Below, piece by piece: positions 8,764 through 19,626 of a stretch of 64,000 nt of DNA. The position numbers were made by a program, and so were the translations under genes. Location: NCBI RefSeq assembly GCF_940143175.1, contig NZ_OW659496.1:248001-312000 (forward strand). Reading direction: 5' to 3'. Positions within the stretch are counted from its first letter, which is position 1. Every line of letters begins with the position of its first letter. A model generated the notes under the pieces. That model had not been told where the DNA came from, ran no database searches, and saw only the letters and a list, made by a program, of their open reading frames with translations. The DNA comes from Erysipelothrix amsterdamensis. GTDB lineage: Bacteria > Bacillota_I > Bacilli_A > Erysipelotrichales > Erysipelotrichaceae.

Positions 8764-9549
8764 CTAAAATACGATTGGTGCAACGATGTTTTGAAGCACT
8801 GCAACGATACTCCAACCTGCCACACGACTTGTACGGCTATAGATTTTTAAGTCTGTTTTGATTTCTTCACCTTCAAGCATAATGCGGTGTTCGTCACCTA
8901 CGTAACCAGGAACTGCATTGATATTTAATGTGGTTTCTTCTGGACCAGCACTTGCAAGTGCAATAGCAACTGAAACATTAACATGAGTTGGTAATGCAGC
9001 GATTGCTTCTTTTGTTGTTCCTGAGAATACTTCAACTGGTTCTTGAATATCAATTAGACCTTCACGATTTAGTGATGTATGGACTAATGCTCGAGGTGAT
9101 TTCATCCCCGTCATTTTTACATTTACAGGACTCATGAGTGTCGCAGTACGAAGTATATCAAAACCTCCTACAGCTCCACTTGCTATATGAACTTTTTTAC
9201 CTGTTTCGCGAGCAACATCTTGTACATGGTTATAGAAAGTTGCATCAGCAAAAGCTCCAATGGATAGTACGACAAGGTTTGAACCAGAACGAAGTACTGT
9301 TTCAGTATAGTCAACGACAGACTTAACAGAAGCTGCTTCAGATGTATAGTCTGGTTCAAGAGCCATTAATTCTTCAATTGTTGAGCATGCTTTACAACCA
9401 TAATGGTTTGCGAACGCAGCGGTACGAAGTGGGTTTCGACCTAATACTCCAACAAGTTCGTATTCAGGTAGATAGCCATCCACCCAAGCTTGAGCCACGA
9501 TATCGTTTAGAAAACCAGGCCCAATTAAAGCTAATTTTAATTTTTTCAT
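8764..9549 (-). CDS. L-aspartate dehydrogenase-like oxidoreductase
   Basis: A 261-residue NAD(P)-binding protein of the aspartate dehydrogenase family (DUF108/NadX). An N-terminal Rossmann segment starts ALIGPGFLND. The middle domain has the family's GAVGGFD signature (about residues 126-132), and a C-terminal stretch contains NINAVPG and EGEEIKTDL. Family members convert L-aspartate to iminoaspartate/oxaloacetate reversibly with NAD(P), often for NAD synthesis, but no other nad genes are nearby. It lies 90 bases downstream of the phosphopantetheinyl transferase on the same strand, and that gap contains a small hairpin, so co-transcription is uncertain. Ribosome site AGGAAAGGA. A link to the amino-acid-loading operon next door is only a guess. 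Confidence 0.8.
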   Translation of the reverse strand: MKKLKLALIGPGFLNDIVAQAWVDGYLPEYELVGVLGRNPLRTAAFANHYGCKACSTIEELMALEPDYTSEAASVKSVVDYTETVLRSGSNLVVLSIGAFADATFYNHVQDVARETGKKVHIASGAVGGFDILRTATLMSPVNVKMTGMKSPRALVHTSLNREGLIDIQEPVEVFSGTTKEAIAALPTHVNVSVAIALASAGPEETTLNINAVPGYVGDEHRIMLEGEEIKTDLKIYSRTSRVAGWSIVAVLQNIVAPIVF

Positions 9550-9639: not shown

Positions 9640-10179
9640 TTAGTCCTTCATTTCGATGGAAATAAATTCAAATGTAGTGGGTGCTTCAGTAAGTAACGAA
9701 CCAAAGTACTCATTACTTAAGGGAAGGAGAGTACAAGTTAGATTTCTCATATTATTATCTAGGATTTCTAATACAGAGAATTGAGGAAAGTCTTTTTCAA
9801 TACGCAGGTCAAAAAATTTGATATAACACTCTTTAAGACACCAGATTTTGTAGAAACTCCGGATGCCATGTTTTTTGACATACTCAATTTCTTGAGGGTG
9901 GTAAAAACGGTCTGAGATTTTTTGGTAATTCACATGCTCATCAAATTTTTGGATGTCGATACTTATTGGATGAAGACTGAATGCATAGCTGGAAAATGCT
10001 TCTGTAATTGTTTTACTGTAATAAAAATCATTATTTAAGATGATGGGTTTACCGTTTTCGGTTTTGTAAAGATACCAAGTGTTATCGATCTTATTACGCC
10101 GAGTAAAGTCTTGAATACACATTTCAAGAGTGCGGATTGATGTTTTTTTTGTTTGATAAATGACAACGTGATTTTCCAT
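9640..10179 (-). CDS. 4'-phosphopantetheinyl transferase, Sfp type (divergent)
   Basis: A 179-residue protein with the Sfp-type motif order: GKP (43-45), SIDIQ (73-77, metal-binding Asp75) and WCLKECYIK (113-121, Glu117). The family moves phosphopantetheine from CoA to a serine of carrier proteins. The motifs are weaker than usual: the SHS motif is replaced by YYSKT and the second metal ligand of the IDIE motif is Gln. It is also shorter than Sfp (about 220 residues). It is divergently transcribed from an operon encoding a carrier protein, 108 bases or more apart, so it is very likely the dedicated activator of that carrier. AAGGAG ribosome site. A degenerate, low-activity enzyme cannot be excluded. 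Confidence 0.75.
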   Translation of the reverse strand: MENHVVIYQTKKTSIRTLEMCIQDFTRRNKIDNTWYLYKTENGKPIILNNDFYYSKTITEAFSSYAFSLHPISIDIQKFDEHVNYQKISDRFYHPQEIEYVKKHGIRSFYKIWCLKECYIKFFDLRIEKDFPQFSVLEILDNNMRNLTCTLLPLSNEYFGSLLTEAPTTFEFISIEMKD

Positions 10180-10234
10180 ATTTTTCTCCTTAATAATGCA
10201 AGCATAACACTGTTCTAGAACTTTTTTTGTTCTC

Positions 10235-10288
10235 TTAAGAATCTATAAGTCGTTCTTAAGATTGTGTTAAGAAAGCGAATGGTATAAT
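10235..10288 (+). promoter_or_regulatory. Phased TTAAG repeats and -10 box in front of the dlt-like operon
   Basis: TTAAG occurs at 10235, 10256 and 10267, with a related ATAAG at 10245. The steps are 10, 11 and 11 bases, one helical turn each. A perfect -10 box TATAAT lies at 10283-10288 with no good -35. The array fits an OmpR-type activator site, and a similar pair lies before the response regulator gene at 15736-15749. The binding protein is inferred. Confidence 0.55.
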
Positions 10289-10311
10289 TGGCACGAAATA
10301 AAAGGAGTTTT

Positions 10312-11829
10312 ATGATGAATCATATACTAAAGTATTTTGAAGCAACTGTAGAGCATCATCCAAAAAAAATCGCAGTTGTTGAACCGAATCAAACGATAAC
10401 TTATGAGAATCTGTTTACTCAGGCTCAAATCGCAGGAACGTTTTTTATAAATCATTTTGATAAAAATAATCCAATTGTTATTTTTAGAGAGAAGGGAATC
10501 GATACACTTTCTTTAATGTTTGGTGCAGCCTATGCTTGCTGTCCCTACGTGATTGTAGATCCATCACAACCTGATGATCGTGTTGTTTCGATTCTTGAAA
10601 CACTAAAAACGAAATATATTATTGCTGCTGCTGATCAAAAATGCCGTATTGAGCAATTGGGTTCAAATATTAAATTCATAGATTTCAAATCAGTACTGTG
10701 CGGAAGTTCAGATGATGCACGGATTGAGCAACGCATGGCTTCGCATATCTCCACAAATCCGCTTTATATACTCTTTACATCAGGTTCCACAGGAAATCCT
10801 AAGGGTGTAGTTGTTTCACATCAATCTGTAATTCGGTTTATTCGTGATTTTACCGATAAGTTTTGTTTTTCTTCAAACGATGTGATTGCGAATCAAGCAC
10901 CTTTTGATTTCGATGTATCAGTTAAGGATATTTACAGTTCAATAATGAAAGGTTCTACCTTGGTGTTAATACCAAAATCATTTTTTACAAATCCTGTAAC
11001 ATTACTGGATTATATTTGTGAGACGAAAGCGACTGTTTTAACGTGGGCTGTATCAGCACTGTGTCTAGTAAGTCAATTAAAAGGTCTATCCTATCGGAAA
11101 CCAAAGCAACTGCGACAAATAATGTTTAGTGGAGAACGTATGCCCGTTAAACATCTAGAGAAATGGCGTGAAGCCTGTCCAAACACGGAGTTTGTAAATC
11201 TATACGGTCCAACTGAAATTACATGTAATTGTACTTACTATATTTTGGAAACAGATCGACATTATGATGAGGAACTTCCAATTGGTATACCGTTTTATGA
11301 CGATCAAGTATTTTTGTTAAATGAAAATGATGAGCTTGTCAACGATTCGGATGTACTTGGAGAAATTTGTGTTGGTGGTTTGAGCTTGGCACTAGGATAT
11401 TTCAATAATCAAGAACAGACAAATCGTGTTTTTGTTCAAAATCCGTTAAATCCATTTTACCGGGATGTTATTTATCGTACCGGAGATTTAGGATACTATA
11501 ACAAAAACGGTGAATTATGTATTAGAGGGCGTAAAGATTTTCAGATAAAACATATGGGTCACCGTATTGAATTGGAGGAAATTGAACGCAAAATTGAGGA
11601 ACATCCTAGCGTTTCAAGAGCTTGTTGTGTCTATCATGAAAAAAAATATAAAATCTATGGCATCTATCACGGGGATCTCGATGTAAGGGAACTTATTTCA
11701 TATTTAGAAACAAAGCTTCCTCATTATATGATTCCTAATACGTTTATACAGGTGCATCAAATGCCCTTAACTAAAAACGGAAAAATAGATCGTCAACTTT
11801 TAAAATCGGAAGTAGGGATACACGTATGA
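10312..11829 (+). CDS. DltA-like amino acid adenylation enzyme (amino acid-carrier protein ligase)
   Basis: A stand-alone ANL-superfamily adenylation domain. It would activate an amino acid with ATP and load it on the carrier protein encoded two genes downstream. Counting from the ATG at 10312: TSGSTGNPKG (156-165), FDFDVSVKD with the amino-group-binding Asp (206), YGPTE (298-302), YRTGD (388-392) and NGKIDR with the catalytic Lys near 492. The length matches DltA (about 505). The region after the Asp reads TWAVSALC where DltA proteins usually have a WVSTPSF-type segment, so the substrate may not be D-alanine. Start: AAAGGAG at 10301 serves ATG 10312 or 10315; an upstream in-frame TTG at 10288 lacks a ribosome site. 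Its stop overlaps the next start (ATGA). Confidence 0.88.
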   Translation: MMNHILKYFEATVEHHPKKIAVVEPNQTITYENLFTQAQIAGTFFINHFDKNNPIVIFREKGIDTLSLMFGAAYACCPYVIVDPSQPDDRVVSILETLKTKYIIAAADQKCRIEQLGSNIKFIDFKSVLCGSSDDARIEQRMASHISTNPLYILFTSGSTGNPKGVVVSHQSVIRFIRDFTDKFCFSSNDVIANQAPFDFDVSVKDIYSSIMKGSTLVLIPKSFFTNPVTLLDYICETKATVLTWAVSALCLVSQLKGLSYRKPKQLRQIMFSGERMPVKHLEKWREACPNTEFVNLYGPTEITCNCTYYILETDRHYDEELPIGIPFYDDQVFLLNENDELVNDSDVLGEICVGGLSLALGYFNNQEQTNRVFVQNPLNPFYRDVIYRTGDLGYYNKNGELCIRGRKDFQIKHMGHRIELEEIERKIEEHPSVSRACCVYHEKKYKIYGIYHGDLDVRELISYLETKLPHYMIPNTFIQVHQMPLTKNGKIDRQLLKSEVGIHV

Positions 11830-13004
11830 ATCTAATGGAACTGTGCACATCGTGCAACGAACTCAAAACACCATGTTATATATTTGACGTTGATTTTTTA
11901 GAAGAACATGTTCAATCAATCAAAGCATCATTACCTGCCAATACGAAGTTATGTTACGCAATGAAAGCCAACCCATTTTTAGTTGGTATTCTCGATAAAA
12001 TAGTAGATTCATTTGAAGTATGTTCTCCTGGAGAATACCGTATTTGTCAAAGGAATAATATTTCCAATCGAAAAATAATACTTTCTGGTGTTTATAAAAA
12101 CTCTGAGGATATCAGGGAAATTATACAGATGGAAGAACAACCAATCTATACAGTCGAGTCTATCAAACAACTGGAATTACTTAATGATTTATCAACCGAG
12201 TATCAGAAACAAATCAACGTAATCTTACGATTGACAAGTGGTAACCAATTTGGAATGGACGCTACTGAAATTGAGCGAGTCTTTGATCAAACAAACGAGT
12301 TCCAGTTTCTAAAATGGCATGGTATTCAGCTTTATTCAGGAACGCAAAAGCATAAACTTAACAAAGTTCAGGCCGAACTCGAATCGTTAAAATCATATAT
12401 TGAAACATTGAGAAGTCGTTATCAAATAGAGCTCCCTTGTTTAGAGTTTGGACCGGGATTAGGTGTTCAATACTTCGAATCAGATAAACCAACACTTTCC
12501 ATTCCCGAATTTAGTTCAGTTCTCAAAAGTTTGAGCTTCGATGGGGAAATTGTTTTAGAGATGGGCCGAATTATTGTTGCAGGTTGTGGCACATATTTAA
12601 CGCGTGTTGTGGATATAAAAACAAACGACATGAAGCATTATGCAATTTTAGATGGCGGAATTCACCATGTTAGTTATTACGGTCAGTTTTTAGGAATGAA
12701 GTGTCCAAATATTGAACGTATTGCTTTAAATGAATCTCCCGAATATTCTGCACAATGGAATTTGTGTGGTTCTTTATGTACGGTTGCGGATGTCTTGGTA
12801 AAAGATTATGAATCAGTCCTCGCGCTGAATGATGTTGTCGCATTCAAAAATGTAGGAGCCTATAGCGTTACAGAAGGAATAAGTTTATTCCTTAGTAGAG
12901 ACCTTCCACAGGTTAACCTATACCGTAAACAAAGTGGTATTGAGGTTATTAGAGATACTGTAGAAATAGATATACTGAATTCAATTAAGGAGAGAAAAAT
13001 ATGA
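11826..13004 (+). CDS. LysA/BtrK-type PLP-dependent decarboxylase in the dlt-like operon
   Basis: A fold-type III PLP enzyme of 392 residues. The PLP lysine is Lys47 in YAMKAN. Other family motifs are SGVYKN (87-92), FGPGLG (208-213), EMGR (245-248, EPGR in diaminopimelate decarboxylase), a Cys at 318 in CGSLCTVADVL and GAY (344-346). It is related to LysA and to BtrK, which decarboxylates an amino acid bound to a carrier protein in butirosin synthesis. Changed residues around the LysA CESxD box argue against ordinary lysine synthesis. It overlaps the adenylation gene by 4 bases and the carrier gene by 4 bases, so it belongs to the same pathway. It may make the free substrate, act on the aminoacyl carrier, or be an amino acid racemase. 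Confidence 0.82.
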   Translation: MNLMELCTSCNELKTPCYIFDVDFLEEHVQSIKASLPANTKLCYAMKANPFLVGILDKIVDSFEVCSPGEYRICQRNNISNRKIILSGVYKNSEDIREIIQMEEQPIYTVESIKQLELLNDLSTEYQKQINVILRLTSGNQFGMDATEIERVFDQTNEFQFLKWHGIQLYSGTQKHKLNKVQAELESLKSYIETLRSRYQIELPCLEFGPGLGVQYFESDKPTLSIPEFSSVLKSLSFDGEIVLEMGRIIVAGCGTYLTRVVDIKTNDMKHYAILDGGIHHVSYYGQFLGMKCPNIERIALNESPEYSAQWNLCGSLCTVADVLVKDYESVLALNDVVAFKNVGAYSVTEGISLFLSRDLPQVNLYRKQSGIEVIRDTVEIDILNSIKERKI

Positions 13005-13231
13005 ATAAATTACTTGAAATTTTAGAAGACATAAAACCAAATATCGATTATGAAACAGAAAATCAATTGGTTGATAAACGGATACTTGATTCGTTCTCAA
13101 TCCTGACTTTGGTTGCAGAACTTGAAGATTCTTTTGATATCGAAATTCCCTATGATGAAATCAAACCGAATAATTTTAATACACTCAAGAGTATGTGGGA
13201 AATGGTAAGTCGTCTTAGCGGTGAAAACTAA
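13001..13231 (+). CDS. Acyl/peptidyl carrier protein (DltC-like)
   Basis: A 76-residue carrier protein. The attachment serine is Ser31 in the motif LDSFSIL; the fold is acidic and helical as in DltC (about 78 residues). It would receive phosphopantetheine, probably from the divergent Sfp-type enzyme, and then the amino acid activated by the adenylation enzyme. The gene overlaps its neighbours on both sides (ATGA with the PLP enzyme, one base of TAATG with the MBOAT gene), which places it firmly in the operon. GGAGAG lies upstream as ribosome site. Confidence 0.88.
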   Translation: MNKLLEILEDIKPNIDYETENQLVDKRILDSFSILTLVAELEDSFDIEIPYDEIKPNNFNTLKSMWEMVSRLSGEN

Positions 13232-14748
13232 TGGCATATCATAATTACATTTATCTTTTCTTGTTTTTGCCGATTATGATGATTATGTATCAATTATGCA
13301 ATCAAAAATATCGGTACCTTGTAATGCTTCTTGGAAGCATTACTTTTTATCTCTTGATGAGTTCAAAACTGATTGTATATTTGGTACTCATCAGTCTATC
13401 TACATATGTCATTGGTTTAGGATTATCTCAATCGAAACAGAAGCATAAAGGCCTTTTTCTGTCTCTTGGAATTCTGATTCCATTAGGGATTTTAACGGTC
13501 TTCAAATATTACAACTTTATTGGAGAAAATCTGAATTCTGTGCTGAAAGGTCTTGAATTAACCATTCCATATCGAAAATTTATTCAACCAATCGGTATTT
13601 CGTTTTTTTCATTACAAGCGATCAGTTACCTTGTAGATGTTAAAATGGGGAAAATTAAGGCAGAACAAAACCCGTTTAAAATCCTACTATATCTATCGTT
13701 TTTTCCAACCATTATTGAAGGACCGATAGCACGATATGATCAGGTTATACCACAGCTTAGTACAGGTGAGGCGATTACATATTCTTCGTTAACATTTGGA
13801 TTACAACGAGTACTGTGGGGCCTTATTAAAAAAGTTGTAATTGCCGATCGTCTCGATCCGTTCGTGGGATCTGTTTTTAAGAATGTTGACACAAATGGTG
13901 GTGTCGTGATTTTAATTGCAGTTCTTGCATATACGCTTCAACTTTATTCAGAGTTCTCGGGTACGATGGACATTGTTTTAGGAAGTGCTGAGATATTTGG
14001 GGTGAAATTGCCCGAAAACTTTAACCAGCCTTTCTTTTCAAAAAGCGCATCTGAGTTTTGGCGACGTTGGCACATGACCTTAGGTGGCTTTTTTAAAGAC
14101 TATATTTTCTACCCTATTTCATTATCAAAATTTAATCGTAAACTAACAAAATGGCTCAAGACTAAAATCGGAAAAAGATATAGTCGTCTATTACCAACGC
14201 TAGGCGCATTATTTGTTGTGTGGGTGTGCAATGGACTGTGGCACGGAGCTCAATGGCAGTACTTAGCCTATGGTATGTATTATTTTGTGATTATTGCATT
14301 TGGAATGATTCTGGAGCCATTGTTCTTAAGTCTATTCAGTAGAACAAAACTAAATCGAGAAAGTAAATTTCTTAATGGATTAAGATGGATAAGAACTATG
14401 CTTATTGTTAATTTTGGAATGATGTTGTTTCGCTCTCATGGAATATCGAAGGCCATTTCAATGTTAACTAAAATGATACAAGATTTTAATGTGAATCAAA
14501 TTATGGATGGATCCCTCCTTAATAAAGGAATGGATATTCATGATTTCGGAATCATTCTATTTGGGTTAGCTATCATGATTATTGTCGGTTTTCTTAAAGA
14601 AAATGGTATTCAAATAAGAATCCAAATTGCGCAGTGGAAGAGTTATGTTCGCATTCCGTTTTATTATGGTGCAATGTTATTCTTAGTTATTTTTGGAGCT
14701 TATGGTTATGGTTACGCAATCGTAGAACTTATTTATGCAAACTTTTAG
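13231..14748 (+). CDS. DltB-like MBOAT O-acyltransferase
   Basis: A 505-residue polytopic membrane protein of the MBOAT family. Conserved features are EGPIARYDQV (near 164-173), SEFWRRWHMTLGGFFKDY (near 274-291) and the catalytic histidine His338 in CNGLWHGAQW. DltB-type MBOATs move an acyl group from the cytoplasmic carrier through the membrane to a surface acceptor. It is longer than Bacillus DltB (about 395-415) and closer in size to the AlgI/PatA group. It starts one base inside the carrier stop codon. The following SGNH gene begins 9 bases after the stop. The acceptor polymer is unknown. Confidence 0.9.
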   Translation: MAYHNYIYLFLFLPIMMIMYQLCNQKYRYLVMLLGSITFYLLMSSKLIVYLVLISLSTYVIGLGLSQSKQKHKGLFLSLGILIPLGILTVFKYYNFIGENLNSVLKGLELTIPYRKFIQPIGISFFSLQAISYLVDVKMGKIKAEQNPFKILLYLSFFPTIIEGPIARYDQVIPQLSTGEAITYSSLTFGLQRVLWGLIKKVVIADRLDPFVGSVFKNVDTNGGVVILIAVLAYTLQLYSEFSGTMDIVLGSAEIFGVKLPENFNQPFFSKSASEFWRRWHMTLGGFFKDYIFYPISLSKFNRKLTKWLKTKIGKRYSRLLPTLGALFVVWVCNGLWHGAQWQYLAYGMYYFVIIAFGMILEPLFLSLFSRTKLNRESKFLNGLRWIRTMLIVNFGMMLFRSHGISKAISMLTKMIQDFNVNQIMDGSLLNKGMDIHDFGIILFGLAIMIIVGFLKENGIQIRIQIAQWKSYVRIPFYYGAMLFLVIFGAYGYGYAIVELIYANF

Positions 14749-14756
14749 GAGGTCTT

Positions 14757-15707
14757 ATGAAAATAATTAGATCAATTTTGTTTACCCTTGGTTTTATTGC
14801 TATATTATTTACAATAACACCTCTTTTTGCTCCCTATGAAATCGACCAATTCGCAAAAGGGAACAGTACAGCGTTCAATGGTATTTTTGCAGAAGACACG
14901 AATCGTCTAGATATGCTTTTCACGGGTGACAGTGAGTCGTTTACGTCATTTATGCCAATGCGATTTTGGGAGAAACTCGGTATAAAATCTTACAATATAG
15001 CAGTCGCTTCTCAAAATTTAGCGGATGGACATAAGACGATTAGTCATATTATTCAAAAGCAAAATCCTAAAATGATTGTTTTAGAAACGAATCAAGTTTA
15101 TACCAACATTGGAGGACTTGCTAATCTTGTAGATAAGTCGATGACAAACACGCTGGCCAATGTGTTTCCAATCTTGAACTATCATGATAATTGGAAGCAA
15201 ATTCTTTCGCTAAAAAAAGCGCAAAGTGTAGAGATCAAGCGAAATCCTCTGAAGGGGTGGCGCATCAATCGTAAAGAAAATGCCTATGAAGGCGGACCGT
15301 ATATGCATCAAACGTTAGAAGAACGGGAAATTCCGACTTTGAATCGACATTATCTTGATGAAATCGTTTCTTTATGTAAAGAACATAATATTCAATTGCT
15401 TCTTGTTAGCGTACCGTCTCCAAGAAATTGGAATTACGAAAAACACAATGGCGTAAGCGCCTATGCAAAAGAAAATCAGATACCTTTTTTAGATTTAAAT
15501 CTTGAAGCCGATTCAATAGGGATTAATTGGCAAGAAGACACCTACGACAAAGGTGATCATTTGAATTTAAAAGGCGCCGAAAAGGTTACGAGACGCCTCG
15601 TTGATTACGTAGCTCAAAATTATAAAATTAAGAGTGAATATACTGAAGAAGAAAGAGTGTTGTGGCAAGAAGATTTTAACGCATTTATTCAGCAGATTAA
15701 CCCATAG
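14757..15707 (+). CDS. SGNH/DltD-like membrane-anchored protein
   Basis: A 316-residue protein with one N-terminal TM helix (about 5-25) and an extracytoplasmic SGNH-type domain. The Ser block is TGDSES (Ser59) and the His block is DKGDHLN (His268, Asp264/267). It occupies the DltD position after an MBOAT gene, as AlgJ/AlgX, PatB and DltD do, and probably helps transfer or finish the acyl modification outside the cell. The start is ATG 14757 with AGGAGG 6 bases upstream; a longer in-frame reading from 14634 lies inside the MBOAT gene and has no ribosome site. No terminator is visible before the regulator gene. Confidence 0.8.
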   Translation: MKIIRSILFTLGFIAILFTITPLFAPYEIDQFAKGNSTAFNGIFAEDTNRLDMLFTGDSESFTSFMPMRFWEKLGIKSYNIAVASQNLADGHKTISHIIQKQNPKMIVLETNQVYTNIGGLANLVDKSMTNTLANVFPILNYHDNWKQILSLKKAQSVEIKRNPLKGWRINRKENAYEGGPYMHQTLEEREIPTLNRHYLDEIVSLCKEHNIQLLLVSVPSPRNWNYEKHNGVSAYAKENQIPFLDLNLEADSIGINWQEDTYDKGDHLNLKGAEKVTRRLVDYVAQNYKIKSEYTEEERVLWQEDFNAFIQQINP

Positions 15708-15735
15708 TTCAATCGAAGCGTTGATGTGCTAAATC

Positions 15736-15768
15736 TTAAAATTTCTTAAATAACACACAAAGTATAGT
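15736..15768 (+). promoter_or_regulatory. TTAA repeat pair and -10 box before the response regulator
   Basis: TCTTAA-type elements occur at 15734 and 15744, 10 bases apart, and TATAGT lies at 15763-15768. The repeat resembles the phased TTAAG array in front of the adenylation gene, which suggests autoregulation by the encoded OmpR-type regulator. Confidence 0.45.
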
Positions 15769-15802
15769 AAAAGAAACATATAATAGAGGAAAGGAGGTGC
15801 TT

Positions 15803-16498
15803 ATGAAAAAGATACTTATTGTTGATGATGACAAAGAAATCAGAGATTTAATGAAGCGTTATTTAGAAATCGATGGATATGAGGTTGTAGTGGCTTCAGA
15901 TGGAAATGATGCAATGAAATACCTCGATGAAAGTATAAAACTTGTAATACTCGATGTTATGATGCCTGAAATTACAGGCTTTGAGGTCAGCGAGGTAATA
16001 AGGAAAAAATATAATGTTCCAATTTTATTTGTTTCCGCAAAAGCTACGGAGCAAGATAAATTTGTAGGTTTTTCTGTTGGTGGTGATGACTATCTTAGCA
16101 AACCATTTTCTTTTTCAGAGCTAAGCCTTCGTGTAAAATCACTCCTAAGACGTTATATTCAATATGATCGTGCAACTGAGAATATTTCTGAAAAGAACCA
16201 CGTTAATACGATTGATTCAATTACAATTGATCTTGATAAAGGCATTACGTTTAAAGATGGGTTGCCTCTGGATTTAACGGAGCGGGAATTTCGAATTCTC
16301 AAATTATTAGCCACAAATCGTGGAAAAATTTTTTCAATCCAAAGTATTTATGAGAACGTTTGGCAGGATGAGTACTTATACTCATCTGCAAATACAGTCA
16401 TGGTGCATATTCGTAACTTAAGAAAAAAAATTGAAATTTGTCCGGAAAATCCGAAGATAATAAAGAATATCTGGGGTAGAGGTTATAAAATTGATTAA
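15803..16498 (+). CDS. OmpR-family response regulator
   Basis: A 231-residue two-component regulator. The receiver domain (1-115) has the acidic pair DDD (8-10), the phospho-acceptor Asp51 in VILDVMMPE, SAKA and the Lys in YLSKPF. A C-terminal winged-helix DNA-binding domain (about 135-231) carries LTEREFRILKLL and ends GRGYKID. The start is ATG 15803 with AAGGAGG 6 bases upstream; an in-frame GTG at 15797 overlaps the ribosome site. The gene follows the dlt-like operon in the same direction. A cell-envelope stress or pH response that controls surface charge would fit, but is inferred. Confidence 0.9.
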   Translation: MKKILIVDDDKEIRDLMKRYLEIDGYEVVVASDGNDAMKYLDESIKLVILDVMMPEITGFEVSEVIRKKYNVPILFVSAKATEQDKFVGFSVGGDDYLSKPFSFSELSLRVKSLLRRYIQYDRATENISEKNHVNTIDSITIDLDKGITFKDGLPLDLTEREFRILKLLATNRGKIFSIQSIYENVWQDEYLYSSANTVMVHIRNLRKKIEICPENPKIIKNIWGRGYKID

Positions 16499-17807
16499 GC
16501 ATCGCAAGCAGTCGCTCACATTGGGTCTTAAAATATTCCTCATAACGGTTGGGTCAATTTTGGCGTCGTTATTTGTGTTTGTAATCACGATAACGTTATC
16601 CATTGATCCAATTGCTACGTATGTGAAAGGCGATGAGCGGATTCACTCAAGAATGCTTCGAGATAAACAGGATTTACAACACTACATCATCGATAATGAT
16701 ATTACACCGATGAATATTGAAGATTTGAGTCCCTGGCTTGAAAATCATAAATATATGATTATCTATATCGTCGATGTAGAAAACAATAACATTGTGTATA
16801 CTAATGACGATCTTTTTGTAAGTAAAGAACTTGAAATAGCCGGAAATACGTCGCTCGAATCGACGATGCTTTATATCGGTGGTAAGTACTTCTATATAGA
16901 TATGTTATATTCTGTGCGAGCAGAAGTAGAAAATTACGCAACCTATCTCGGTTTAATCCTTTCATCAATGACCTTTTTACTTGTTTTCTATTATGGTATT
17001 CGAAATATTACCAAAAGAGTTAAGCAACTAACTAATGAGATTGAAATTATTGGAGCAGGAACACCAAACAGTTATATAAGTGATAAAGGGAATGATGAGC
17101 TAGGACGATTAAGTTTTGAGATTAATGCGCTTATTACAGAATTATCTCAAAAAAACCAAGAACTTGTTATTTCTGAAAATGCACTCAAAGAACTCGTAAC
17201 AAGTTTGGCTCACGACTTAAGAACGCCACTGACTTCTTTAATTGGGTATATCACCCTTATAAAGCTTGAGGCTCAATCAGAAGATATCGAGGATCTTGCG
17301 AACCGTTGTGAACAAAAAGCACTCCAAATGAAGACAATTTCCGATGAGTTATTCTCACTTTTCTCGACGCTCTCTTTAAATGAAGATAGTGAGTTACCCC
17401 TTGAACGCGTACATGTTCAAGATTTTATGGAAGGTGCAGTTGATCGTCTCAAATCGGATTTAAATCTAAAAGAATTCGAGGTAGTGATTCATCAGACTGT
17501 TAATGAAGAAAACCATTATGTAAGTCTTAATCTATACTACATGGATCGTCTTTTCGAAAATATTATTTCAAATGTATTAAAGTATGCGGAACCGAAGTCA
17601 ACGATACAAATTGAAGTTACAATTGAAAATTCATGGTGTACCCTTGAGATTGTAAATGGAATAAGAGTTGACCAAGTTACAGAAGAAGCATCTGGTTTTG
17701 GATTACTATCGTGTCGTAAAATTGTTGATACTCATAAAGGACACTTTTCAACTTCACGAGATAAAAATATCTTTAAGACGAGCGTTGAGTTGCCAACCAG
17801 TCAATAA
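16491..17807 (+). CDS. Sensor histidine kinase, partner of the OmpR-type regulator
   Basis: A 438-residue membrane kinase. TM1 is about residues 12-38, an extracytoplasmic sensor of about 110 residues follows, TM2 is about 150-170, then HAMP-like linker, HisKA with LAHDLRTPL (His241) and an HATPase domain with N box NIISNVLKYAEP and a G box containing GFGL. It probably starts at TTG 16491, which overlaps the regulator stop by 8 bases, with GAGG about 8 bases upstream. Its position after the acyltransferase operon suggests that the sensor monitors the envelope. Confidence 0.88.
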   Translation: MIKHRKQSLTLGLKIFLITVGSILASLFVFVITITLSIDPIATYVKGDERIHSRMLRDKQDLQHYIIDNDITPMNIEDLSPWLENHKYMIIYIVDVENNNIVYTNDDLFVSKELEIAGNTSLESTMLYIGGKYFYIDMLYSVRAEVENYATYLGLILSSMTFLLVFYYGIRNITKRVKQLTNEIEIIGAGTPNSYISDKGNDELGRLSFEINALITELSQKNQELVISENALKELVTSLAHDLRTPLTSLIGYITLIKLEAQSEDIEDLANRCEQKALQMKTISDELFSLFSTLSLNEDSELPLERVHVQDFMEGAVDRLKSDLNLKEFEVVIHQTVNEENHYVSLNLYYMDRLFENIISNVLKYAEPKSTIQIEVTIENSWCTLEIVNGIRVDQVTEEASGFGLLSCRKIVDTHKGHFSTSRDKNIFKTSVELPTSQ

Positions 17808-18476: not shown

Positions 18477-19424
18477 TTATATTTTAATCAACTCAGACTG
18501 ATCAAGATCGAAATCATGGATGCAGTGGCTATAAGTGTTATAGCTATCATAGGTTCTATAAGCATAGGTCTGCGTTGAATTAACCATAAACGACATATAT
18601 TGAGTATAGTCGATGGTTTTTCTTTGTGTTACGACACTTCCTTTAGCAATATCAACACCGTTAAGAATGTGACTTGCGGCAATAATAAGTTCTCTATCCG
18701 TATTTGGTTTTTGTGCGCTCAGTTTCGAATAGAGCGCTTTTATAAAACGAGAAGGAGGGGTTAAGTCTCCGGGAATTCCAAAGGTTCCACTTCCTTGCCC
18801 AAAGGGTTTAAACTCTTTTCCGTATAGTGTTCTTGGTTCAACTTGTCCCGGATCAAGACCAATATAATTTCGAATATTAGTCAGATGCCAAGTATAATCG
18901 GGGCTGTTTGTAAGTACACCAATTTGATTATTATGAATCTGAATTCCATGGTCCGTAGGTTCTACAATTATGGATGCGCCATTTGCATCCTGGAATACCC
19001 AATGCAGGGAAGGGACGATCCCTAAGAACTCAATAACATGATGTGTAATTGGATGTTCTTGAAACATCATCCGGACATCTTCAATTGTCTTACAATGTGC
19101 AAGAGCCCACATGACCACTTCATGGGGTGCAAGTGATTGATTTGGTATGCTCTCTTGAACATAACTCGCGTAACCTTCAAAATATAAAGCCGCTGCTGCC
19201 AGTCCATATTCATTGATACCATCCGCGAGCGCGTAGGTACCAATGTTTTTTGCGAGCCCAAAATATGCATAATGACTCGAAATCTCATGATTTAAATAAG
19301 CAAAATGAAGTGGAACATTGCGTGGAAATAAAACCATTTCAGGGTCTAGTTCAAATGAAAAATCCATTGTTCGTGCCATTAAAAAATGATTTTGAGTACT
19401 TTTTAACGTGATGTTTGTACACAT
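18477..19424 (-). CDS. Choloylglycine hydrolase / penicillin V acylase family protein
   Basis: An Ntn-hydrolase that cuts amide bonds, for example in conjugated bile salts, penicillin V or N-acyl homoserine lactones. The start is fixed by the chemistry: ATG 19424 gives Met-Cys2, and Cys2 becomes the catalytic N-terminal residue. GGGAGGTG lies 6 bases upstream; an in-frame TTG 15 bases earlier would bury the Cys. Further family residues are the Arg-Thr-Met-Asp of ARTMDF (about 17-22), an NSPDYTWH segment and NSTQTYAYR near the end. No signal peptide, so probably cytoplasmic. Bile salt hydrolase versus penicillin acylase cannot be decided by eye. It leads a group with two small membrane proteins. 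Confidence 0.85.
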   Translation of the reverse strand: MCTNITLKSTQNHFLMARTMDFSFELDPEMVLFPRNVPLHFAYLNHEISSHYAYFGLAKNIGTYALADGINEYGLAAAALYFEGYASYVQESIPNQSLAPHEVVMWALAHCKTIEDVRMMFQEHPITHHVIEFLGIVPSLHWVFQDANGASIIVEPTDHGIQIHNNQIGVLTNSPDYTWHLTNIRNYIGLDPGQVEPRTLYGKEFKPFGQGSGTFGIPGDLTPPSRFIKALYSKLSAQKPNTDRELIIAASHILNGVDIAKGSVVTQRKTIDYTQYMSFMVNSTQTYAYRTYDSYNTYSHCIHDFDLDQSELIKI

Positions 19425-19626
19425 AAAAACACCTCCCAAGTTTGCCTTGCATAATTATTATAGGGGAAATCTTTATACAATACATAAATCTGATATGATT
19501 TCGCAAGAATATCATGGTTTCATCACAATTTGATTTTCATCCACATCTTCATTTATTAACAAAATATCACACTAGATTTGGCTCTGGGTGTTACGATTAG
19601 TTTAAGAATCCAATAGCAGGAGGTGC

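Follow-up and report, generated by a model that had tools for sequence, protein, structure and literature searches.

A Dlt-related operon of Erysipelothrix amsterdamensis with a BtrK-like enzyme predicted to decarboxylate carrier-bound cargo

Organization of the operon

We analysed a 64-kb stretch of DNA (the window) held by the 1.91 Mb single-contig genome of Erysipelothrix amsterdamensis, in which the operon region lies at positions 9640–17807 (Table 1). An ORF and profile check of the window recovered all eight genes of the original prediction, with coordinates and strands as predicted, and the existence of the gene system itself is certain. Genes for an adenylation enzyme, a LysA/BtrK-type PLP enzyme, a carrier protein, an MBOAT and an SGNH protein form one tightly packed run, touching or overlapping from the adenylation gene through the SGNH gene (gaps in bases: adenylation/PLP, −4; PLP/carrier, −4; carrier/MBOAT, −1; MBOAT/SGNH, +8). 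A divergent Sfp-type phosphopantetheinyl transferase (PPTase) gene lies in front on the minus strand, and response regulator and sensor kinase genes follow the operon, as had been claimed (SGNH/regulator, +95; regulator/kinase, −8). For the adenylation gene, the most likely start is ATG 10315, which is preceded by AAGGAG, and not TTG 10288. Beside the region, an aspartate dehydrogenase-like gene (8764–9549) adjoins the PPTase gene in all four Erysipelothrix genomes compared, and a gene of the choloylglycine hydrolase (bile salt hydrolase) family (18477–19439) lies downstream of the sensor kinase.

Table 1. Genes and candidate regulatory features of the operon region (positions in the window)
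Feature	Position	Strand	Remarks
Sfp/AusB-type 4'-phosphopantetheinyl transferase	9640..10179	-	PF01648, 45.9 bits
Candidate operator, TCTTAA-type repeats	10234..10273	+	Conserved in full or nearly so in four Erysipelothrix genomes
TATAAT of operon promoter	about 10283-10288	+	
DltA-like adenylation enzyme, 504 aa	10315..11829	+	Catalytic Lys490
Predicted BtrK-like PLP decarboxylase, alanine-racemase fold	11826..13004	+	PLP Lys47; Cys318-Thr319
Carrier protein, 76 aa	13001..13231	+	Attachment Ser31 (LDSF)
MBOAT, 505 aa	13231..14748	+	Catalytic-type His338 (WHG)
C-terminal acyl-shuttle hexapeptide LIYANF, in MBOAT gene	14728..14745	+	Tyr502; motif function from PMC12148441
Predicted membrane-anchored SGNH-fold transferase	14757..15707	+	Ser59 in GDSE; His268
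Candidate operator TCTTAA-N4-TCTTAA	15731..15752	+	Upstream of response regulator
OmpR/VanR-type response regulator	15803..16498	+	
Sensor histidine kinase, VanS/WalK-like	16491..17807	+	

Control of the operon by a regulator of its own, also part of the original prediction, appears likely from operator-like repeats, found post hoc, that are common to the operon and regulator promoters. The pattern TCTTAA-N4/5-TCTTAA, which was chosen after seeing the sites, occurs twice in the 64 kb, at these two promoters, and the TCTTAA repeats at both are conserved in four Erysipelothrix genomes. Among 80 related loci from other genomes, a regulator or kinase gene was nearby in 26, and the kinase gene abutted the adenylation gene in 11.

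The cassette in other genomes

A search for the same five-gene order, proposed as a check on the prediction, found the exact order of adenylation, PLP, carrier, MBOAT and SGNH genes in 57 of the 80 named public loci. This set is drawn mainly from Lachnospiraceae, Oscillospiraceae and other Clostridia, with 30 of the 80 loci near contig ends, and the loci without the exact order were mostly rearranged or cut by contig ends. Median intergenic gaps in the cassette loci were −4 to +8 bases. The operon is not confined to Erysipelothrix, and its gene order is common to many gut Firmicutes. Because this order recurs in dozens of genera, chance association is excluded. When relatives were searched with the PLP protein, close matches (E < 1e-70) were found in 11 genomes, and in all 11 they were accompanied by adenylation, carrier, MBOAT and SGNH genes. 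Related adenylation enzymes were present in 49 of the 209 Erysipelotrichales genomes searched. We found no description of a decarboxylase-bearing dlt-type operon in the open literature searched.

Some loci had features of their own. In G007 (L034:7499-10411) an in-frame stop interrupts the PLP gene and the MBOAT gene is also split, from decay or sequencing error, and in G012 (L040:3239-8902) the carrier–MBOAT–SGNH part is duplicated. In a genome labelled Streptococcus suis SSHP-D (L062:2731-16057), integrase-like and guaA-like ORFs (named by eye) flank a cassette of 30% GC, which suggests horizontal arrival. In a number of similar Lachnospiraceae loci, a small protein that weakly matches the DnaJ domain lies upstream of the cassette (for example L073:5945-6487), accounting for 7 of the 78 flanking proteins scanned. 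A Pfam scan of the 78 flanking proteins returned histidine kinases, weak DnaJ matches and sugar enzymes, with no substrate clue, and a plasmid search gave no match.

The adenylation enzyme and its pocket

The pocket of the window enzyme consists of D200, V201, K204, T243, W244, M270, S272, L296, C304 and N305. This pattern, D-V-K-x-W-x-S-L-C-N, recurs in the PLP-bearing loci, where none of 87 adenylation enzymes departs from it at the D, V, K, W, S, C and N positions; we take these residues to be the counterparts of GrsA positions 235, 236, 239, 279, 301, 330 and 331. The surfactin glutamate module has lysine at position 239, and ACV synthetase has arginine there. Lysine at this position suggests a carboxylate in the substrate, and the pocket does not settle which carboxyl is activated. 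Lys204 was rejected as sole proof of an acidic substrate: it is also present in the DAK-type pockets of cassettes that lack the PLP gene and therefore does not, on its own, mark the substrate.

In L. plantarum DltA, the amine is bound by Asp198, and Cys270 contributes to the selection of D- versus L-alanine (PMC9338922). Comparison with DltA showed that the Asp is kept (D200) and that the D-Ala-selecting Cys is replaced by an invariant serine, Ser272, which supports the proposal that the cargo is not plain D-alanine. The enzyme scored 297.9 bits with the DltA model TIGR01734 (cut-off 559.85). When a model of the enzyme was compared with the PDB, many NRPS and DltA structures matched almost equally well (Z 47-51), and the comparison was not discriminating.

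Within Erysipelotrichales, the DVK/SLCN pocket was found in 31 of 32 PLP-bearing cassettes versus 2 of 19 PLP-less ones (Fisher 2e-10, a test that ignores kinship). From this pocket association and the conserved gene order, the view of the PLP gene as an unrelated passenger was rejected. The PLP-less cassettes consist of adenylation, carrier, MBOAT and SGNH genes, and 17 of the 19 have other pockets, of either the SMxYW..ALDI type, which lacks the amine-binding Asp, or DAK types. The former, with Ser in place of that Asp, occurs in L187, L190, L192-L197, L200, L202 and L203, and these cassettes possibly load a non-amino acid. The DAK-type pockets of L188, L189, L191, L133 and L199 suggest still other cargoes.

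Three loci depart from the association. L198 and L201 have the DVK/SLCN pocket without a PLP gene, and only LysA-like PLP proteins were found in their genomes; L204 has a PLP gene and another pocket. The cassette at L201:1933-8515 adjoins a LicC-like nucleotidyltransferase-like pair and a BCCT-type transporter (identified by eye). The enzymes from PLP-bearing cassettes group together on the adenylation tree (95/87), consistent with one origin, and L198 and L201 branch just outside this group. Because of this position the pocket may predate the decarboxylase, an order that is weakly supported.

Similarity of the PLP enzyme to BtrK

The best PDB match of the PLP enzyme was BtrK, at 117.6 bits versus 100.9 for the best LysA, in agreement with the predicted BtrK-like decarboxylase. 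The enzyme has GTQ and LCTxxD in common with BtrK and is without the HIGSQ, R-x-x-L-Y and CES motifs of LysA. Across the family of operon PLP enzymes the R-x-x-L-Y segment is missing, and threonine (Thr319) stands at the LysA Glu position in 91 of 92, as in BtrK. A tree with 18 LysA sequences and BtrK, also proposed as a check, placed the operon enzymes in one group (100/100) apart from LysA; as it contains one BtrK row and is unrooted, it cannot show BtrK as the sister group.

BtrK converts a glutamyl-carrier protein to a GABA-carrier protein (PMC7857480), and in the vicenistatin pathway thioester formation must come before decarboxylation (PMC11284099). Judged from sequence, decarboxylation on the carrier is likely in the operon as well. 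The butirosin (BtrI/BtrJ/BtrK) and vicenistatin (VinN/VinO/VinL) systems resemble the operon in that an acidic amino acid is held on a stand-alone carrier and decarboxylated there by a PLP enzyme, which in the case of BtrK has the same alanine-racemase fold. They differ in that they feed antibiotic synthesis, whereas the operon carrier would feed an MBOAT–SGNH pair. To our knowledge, BtrJ is not an adenylation enzyme of the operon's type.

The best NCBIfam models of the PLP enzyme, TIGR03099, which scores highest, and lysA, are both far under their cut-offs. The exosortase A-associated ligase and decarboxylase (TIGR03098 and TIGR03099) represent the same two enzyme classes as the operon's adenylation and PLP proteins, but these reach only 187.6 of 592 and 163.3 of 478 bits, and no exosortase genes were seen beside the operon.

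Carrier supply and envelope transfer

The original prediction of a dedicated PPTase and carrier was supported. Apart from this PPTase, the genome gave no PF01648 match. The operon adenylation enzyme is likewise its only AMP-binding protein, and no PF00550 carrier was found elsewhere in the genome; the operon's own carrier is too divergent for the PF00550 model and scored 38.5 bits with the DltC model NF003464 (cut-off 68). Given this sole PPTase, sole AMP-binding protein and lack of another PF00550 carrier, phosphopantetheine carriers in this cell may serve chiefly, or solely, the operon pathway.

The window MBOAT scored 164.6 bits with the DltB model TIGR04091 (cut-off 375) and has the C terminus LIYANF. 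A Tyr at the fourth-last residue, an FxYxxF-like end and the WHG motif were found in 72 of 72 MBOATs. The C-terminal hexapeptide of PatA, and DltX in the Dlt system, hand the acyl group, bound as acyl-Tyr, on to the SGNH protein (PMC12148441). Since all 72 MBOATs end in this PatA/DltX acyl-shuttle motif, DltX is built in. The SGNH protein matched no Pfam family, and its predicted structure has an SGNH hydrolase fold, with PatB and DltD among the Foldseek matches.

Like DltABCDX, the operon has an adenylation enzyme predicted to load a small carrier, and an MBOAT and SGNH protein that would deliver the cargo to a surface polymer by way of an acyl-Tyr shuttle. Unlike DltABCDX, it adds a PLP decarboxylase, replaces the D-Ala pocket with Lys204, Ser272 and Asn305, has no separate DltX, the motif being fused to the MBOAT, and lacks the DltD Pfam family. 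A Dlt operon proper was rejected, as no part reaches a Dlt cut-off and the D-Ala-selecting Cys is changed. No DltA above the cut-off was found in the host genome or in any of 60 relatives, versus 2 of 14 control genomes. PatA/PatB and AlgI-type MBOAT–SGNH pairs share the extra C-terminal MBOAT helices, the FxYxxF-type shuttle and the SGNH partner, but use acyl-CoA and no carrier protein; MBOAT–SGNH pathways other than Dlt are stated to lack a carrier (PMC12148441). The carrier gene argues against acyl-CoA use by the operon MBOAT. With a carrier present and the shuttle hexapeptide fused to the MBOAT, the operon mixes Dlt-type supply with PatA-type transfer.

Genes that bear on possible acceptors in the genome encode two TarF-like CDP-glycerol transferases and one phosphoglycerol-transferase/LtaS-like protein. 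The capsule of Erysipelothrix rhusiopathiae bears phosphorylcholine (PMC10434233).

Proposed mechanism and alternatives

We consider it somewhat better than an even chance that the operon encodes a Dlt-related, carrier-dependent envelope acylation system in which the cargo is changed on the carrier, from an acidic amino acid to an omega-aminoacyl ester. The PPTase would arm the carrier at Ser31. The adenylation enzyme would then activate an acidic amino acid and load it onto the carrier. L-Glutamate, activated at the side-chain carboxyl, is the most likely substrate, with L-aspartate second; in the pocket, the amine would be bound by Asp200, and the free carboxylate by Lys204 together with Ser272 and Asn305. 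The BtrK-like enzyme would strip the free alpha-carboxyl from the tethered substrate, giving a GABA-carrier (or beta-alanyl-carrier). VinN/VinO/VinL provide a proven precedent for loading first and decarboxylation second (PMC11284099). The MBOAT would carry the omega-aminoacyl group across the membrane to Tyr502 of its own C-terminal shuttle motif, and the SGNH protein would esterify a surface polymer with it; the positive charge so gained is probably the purpose of the system. The two-component system would control both the operon and itself in response to a presumed signal. As cargo, GABA first and beta-alanine second are plausible; of the examples named in the original prediction, these two, formed on the carrier, agree best with the data. 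Our literature search found neither biochemical work on such a system nor a known GABA-bearing polymer in these bacteria.

The same machine could instead convert aspartate to beta-alanine, or work on a different dicarboxylic amino acid (for example aminoadipate, giving 5-aminovalerate), which we regard as unlikely. 3-Methyl-Asp and Asp are activated by VinN and FlvN, and VinO acts as an on-carrier decarboxylase (PMC11284099); the aspartate dehydrogenase gene next to the PPTase in the four Erysipelothrix genomes also speaks for this route. However, in other genera the cassette was not seen with this dehydrogenase gene next to it, and the nearest solved PLP relative acts on a glutamyl-carrier.

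There is a smaller chance that the PLP enzyme first makes a free product, such as GABA or beta-alanine, which the adenylation enzyme then loads. Some macrolactam pathways proceed in this way, as with IdnL3 on beta-glutamate (PMC11284099), but here the route would leave the invariant Lys204 without an acid to pair with, and the BtrK-like active site lacks the distal-group residues of LysA, a free-substrate decarboxylase.

An epimerase that inverts the carrier-loaded amino acid, so that a D-amino acid ester results and the system is a variant of D-aminoacylation, is very improbable. The overall fold is that of alanine racemase (PF01168, 50.9 bits), but the alanine racemase model TIGR00492 gives 28.8 bits against a cut-off of 168, a score on which alanine racemase itself was rejected, and the decarboxylase-type Cys318 is invariant in 92 of 92 operon PLP enzymes.

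Arg249, Arg285 and Glu315 of Thermotoga maritima LysA bind the far end of DAP (PMC8277567). That the PLP enzyme is a LysA for lysine, lying by accident inside a dlt-like operon, was rejected as extremely unlikely: it is the genome's only PF02784 protein and scores 156 bits with the lysA profile, but this is under the cut-off of 298, the counterparts of Arg285 and Glu315 are replaced, and relatives have a separate, true LysA. Lysine from a DAP-like precursor, named in the original prediction as an example of the cargo, was not upheld either. A genome profile search that detected its controls gave no match for DapB_C (PF05173) or DAP_epimerase (PF01678), so there is no evident DAP supply, which counts against both readings, as do the replaced DAP-binding residues; Lys204 disfavours a cationic side chain.

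Implications

Taken more widely, Dlt may belong to a larger carrier-fed MBOAT–SGNH class with varied cargoes, in which a widespread Firmicutes branch gained a BtrK-type decarboxylase once, so that an omega-amino acid (for example, GABA) is made on the carrier and put on a polymer, and in which the Ser-pocket branch loads a non-amino acid; we hold this joint reading tentatively, at slightly under even confidence. Family models see the operon proteins only as weak DltA-, LysA- and DltB-like matches. The proposed system would join on-carrier decarboxylation, a reaction of antibiotic pathways, with MBOAT–SGNH envelope acylation, and the conserved pocket makes its cargo directly testable. Modifying the charge on surface polymers influences how bacteria resist cationic peptides and antibiotics. 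If the mechanism is correct, many gut Firmicutes and Erysipelothrix would possess an unrecognized charge modification with a different chemical group, which may explain how the surface is adjusted without a canonical dlt operon and why a PPTase is retained in the genome.
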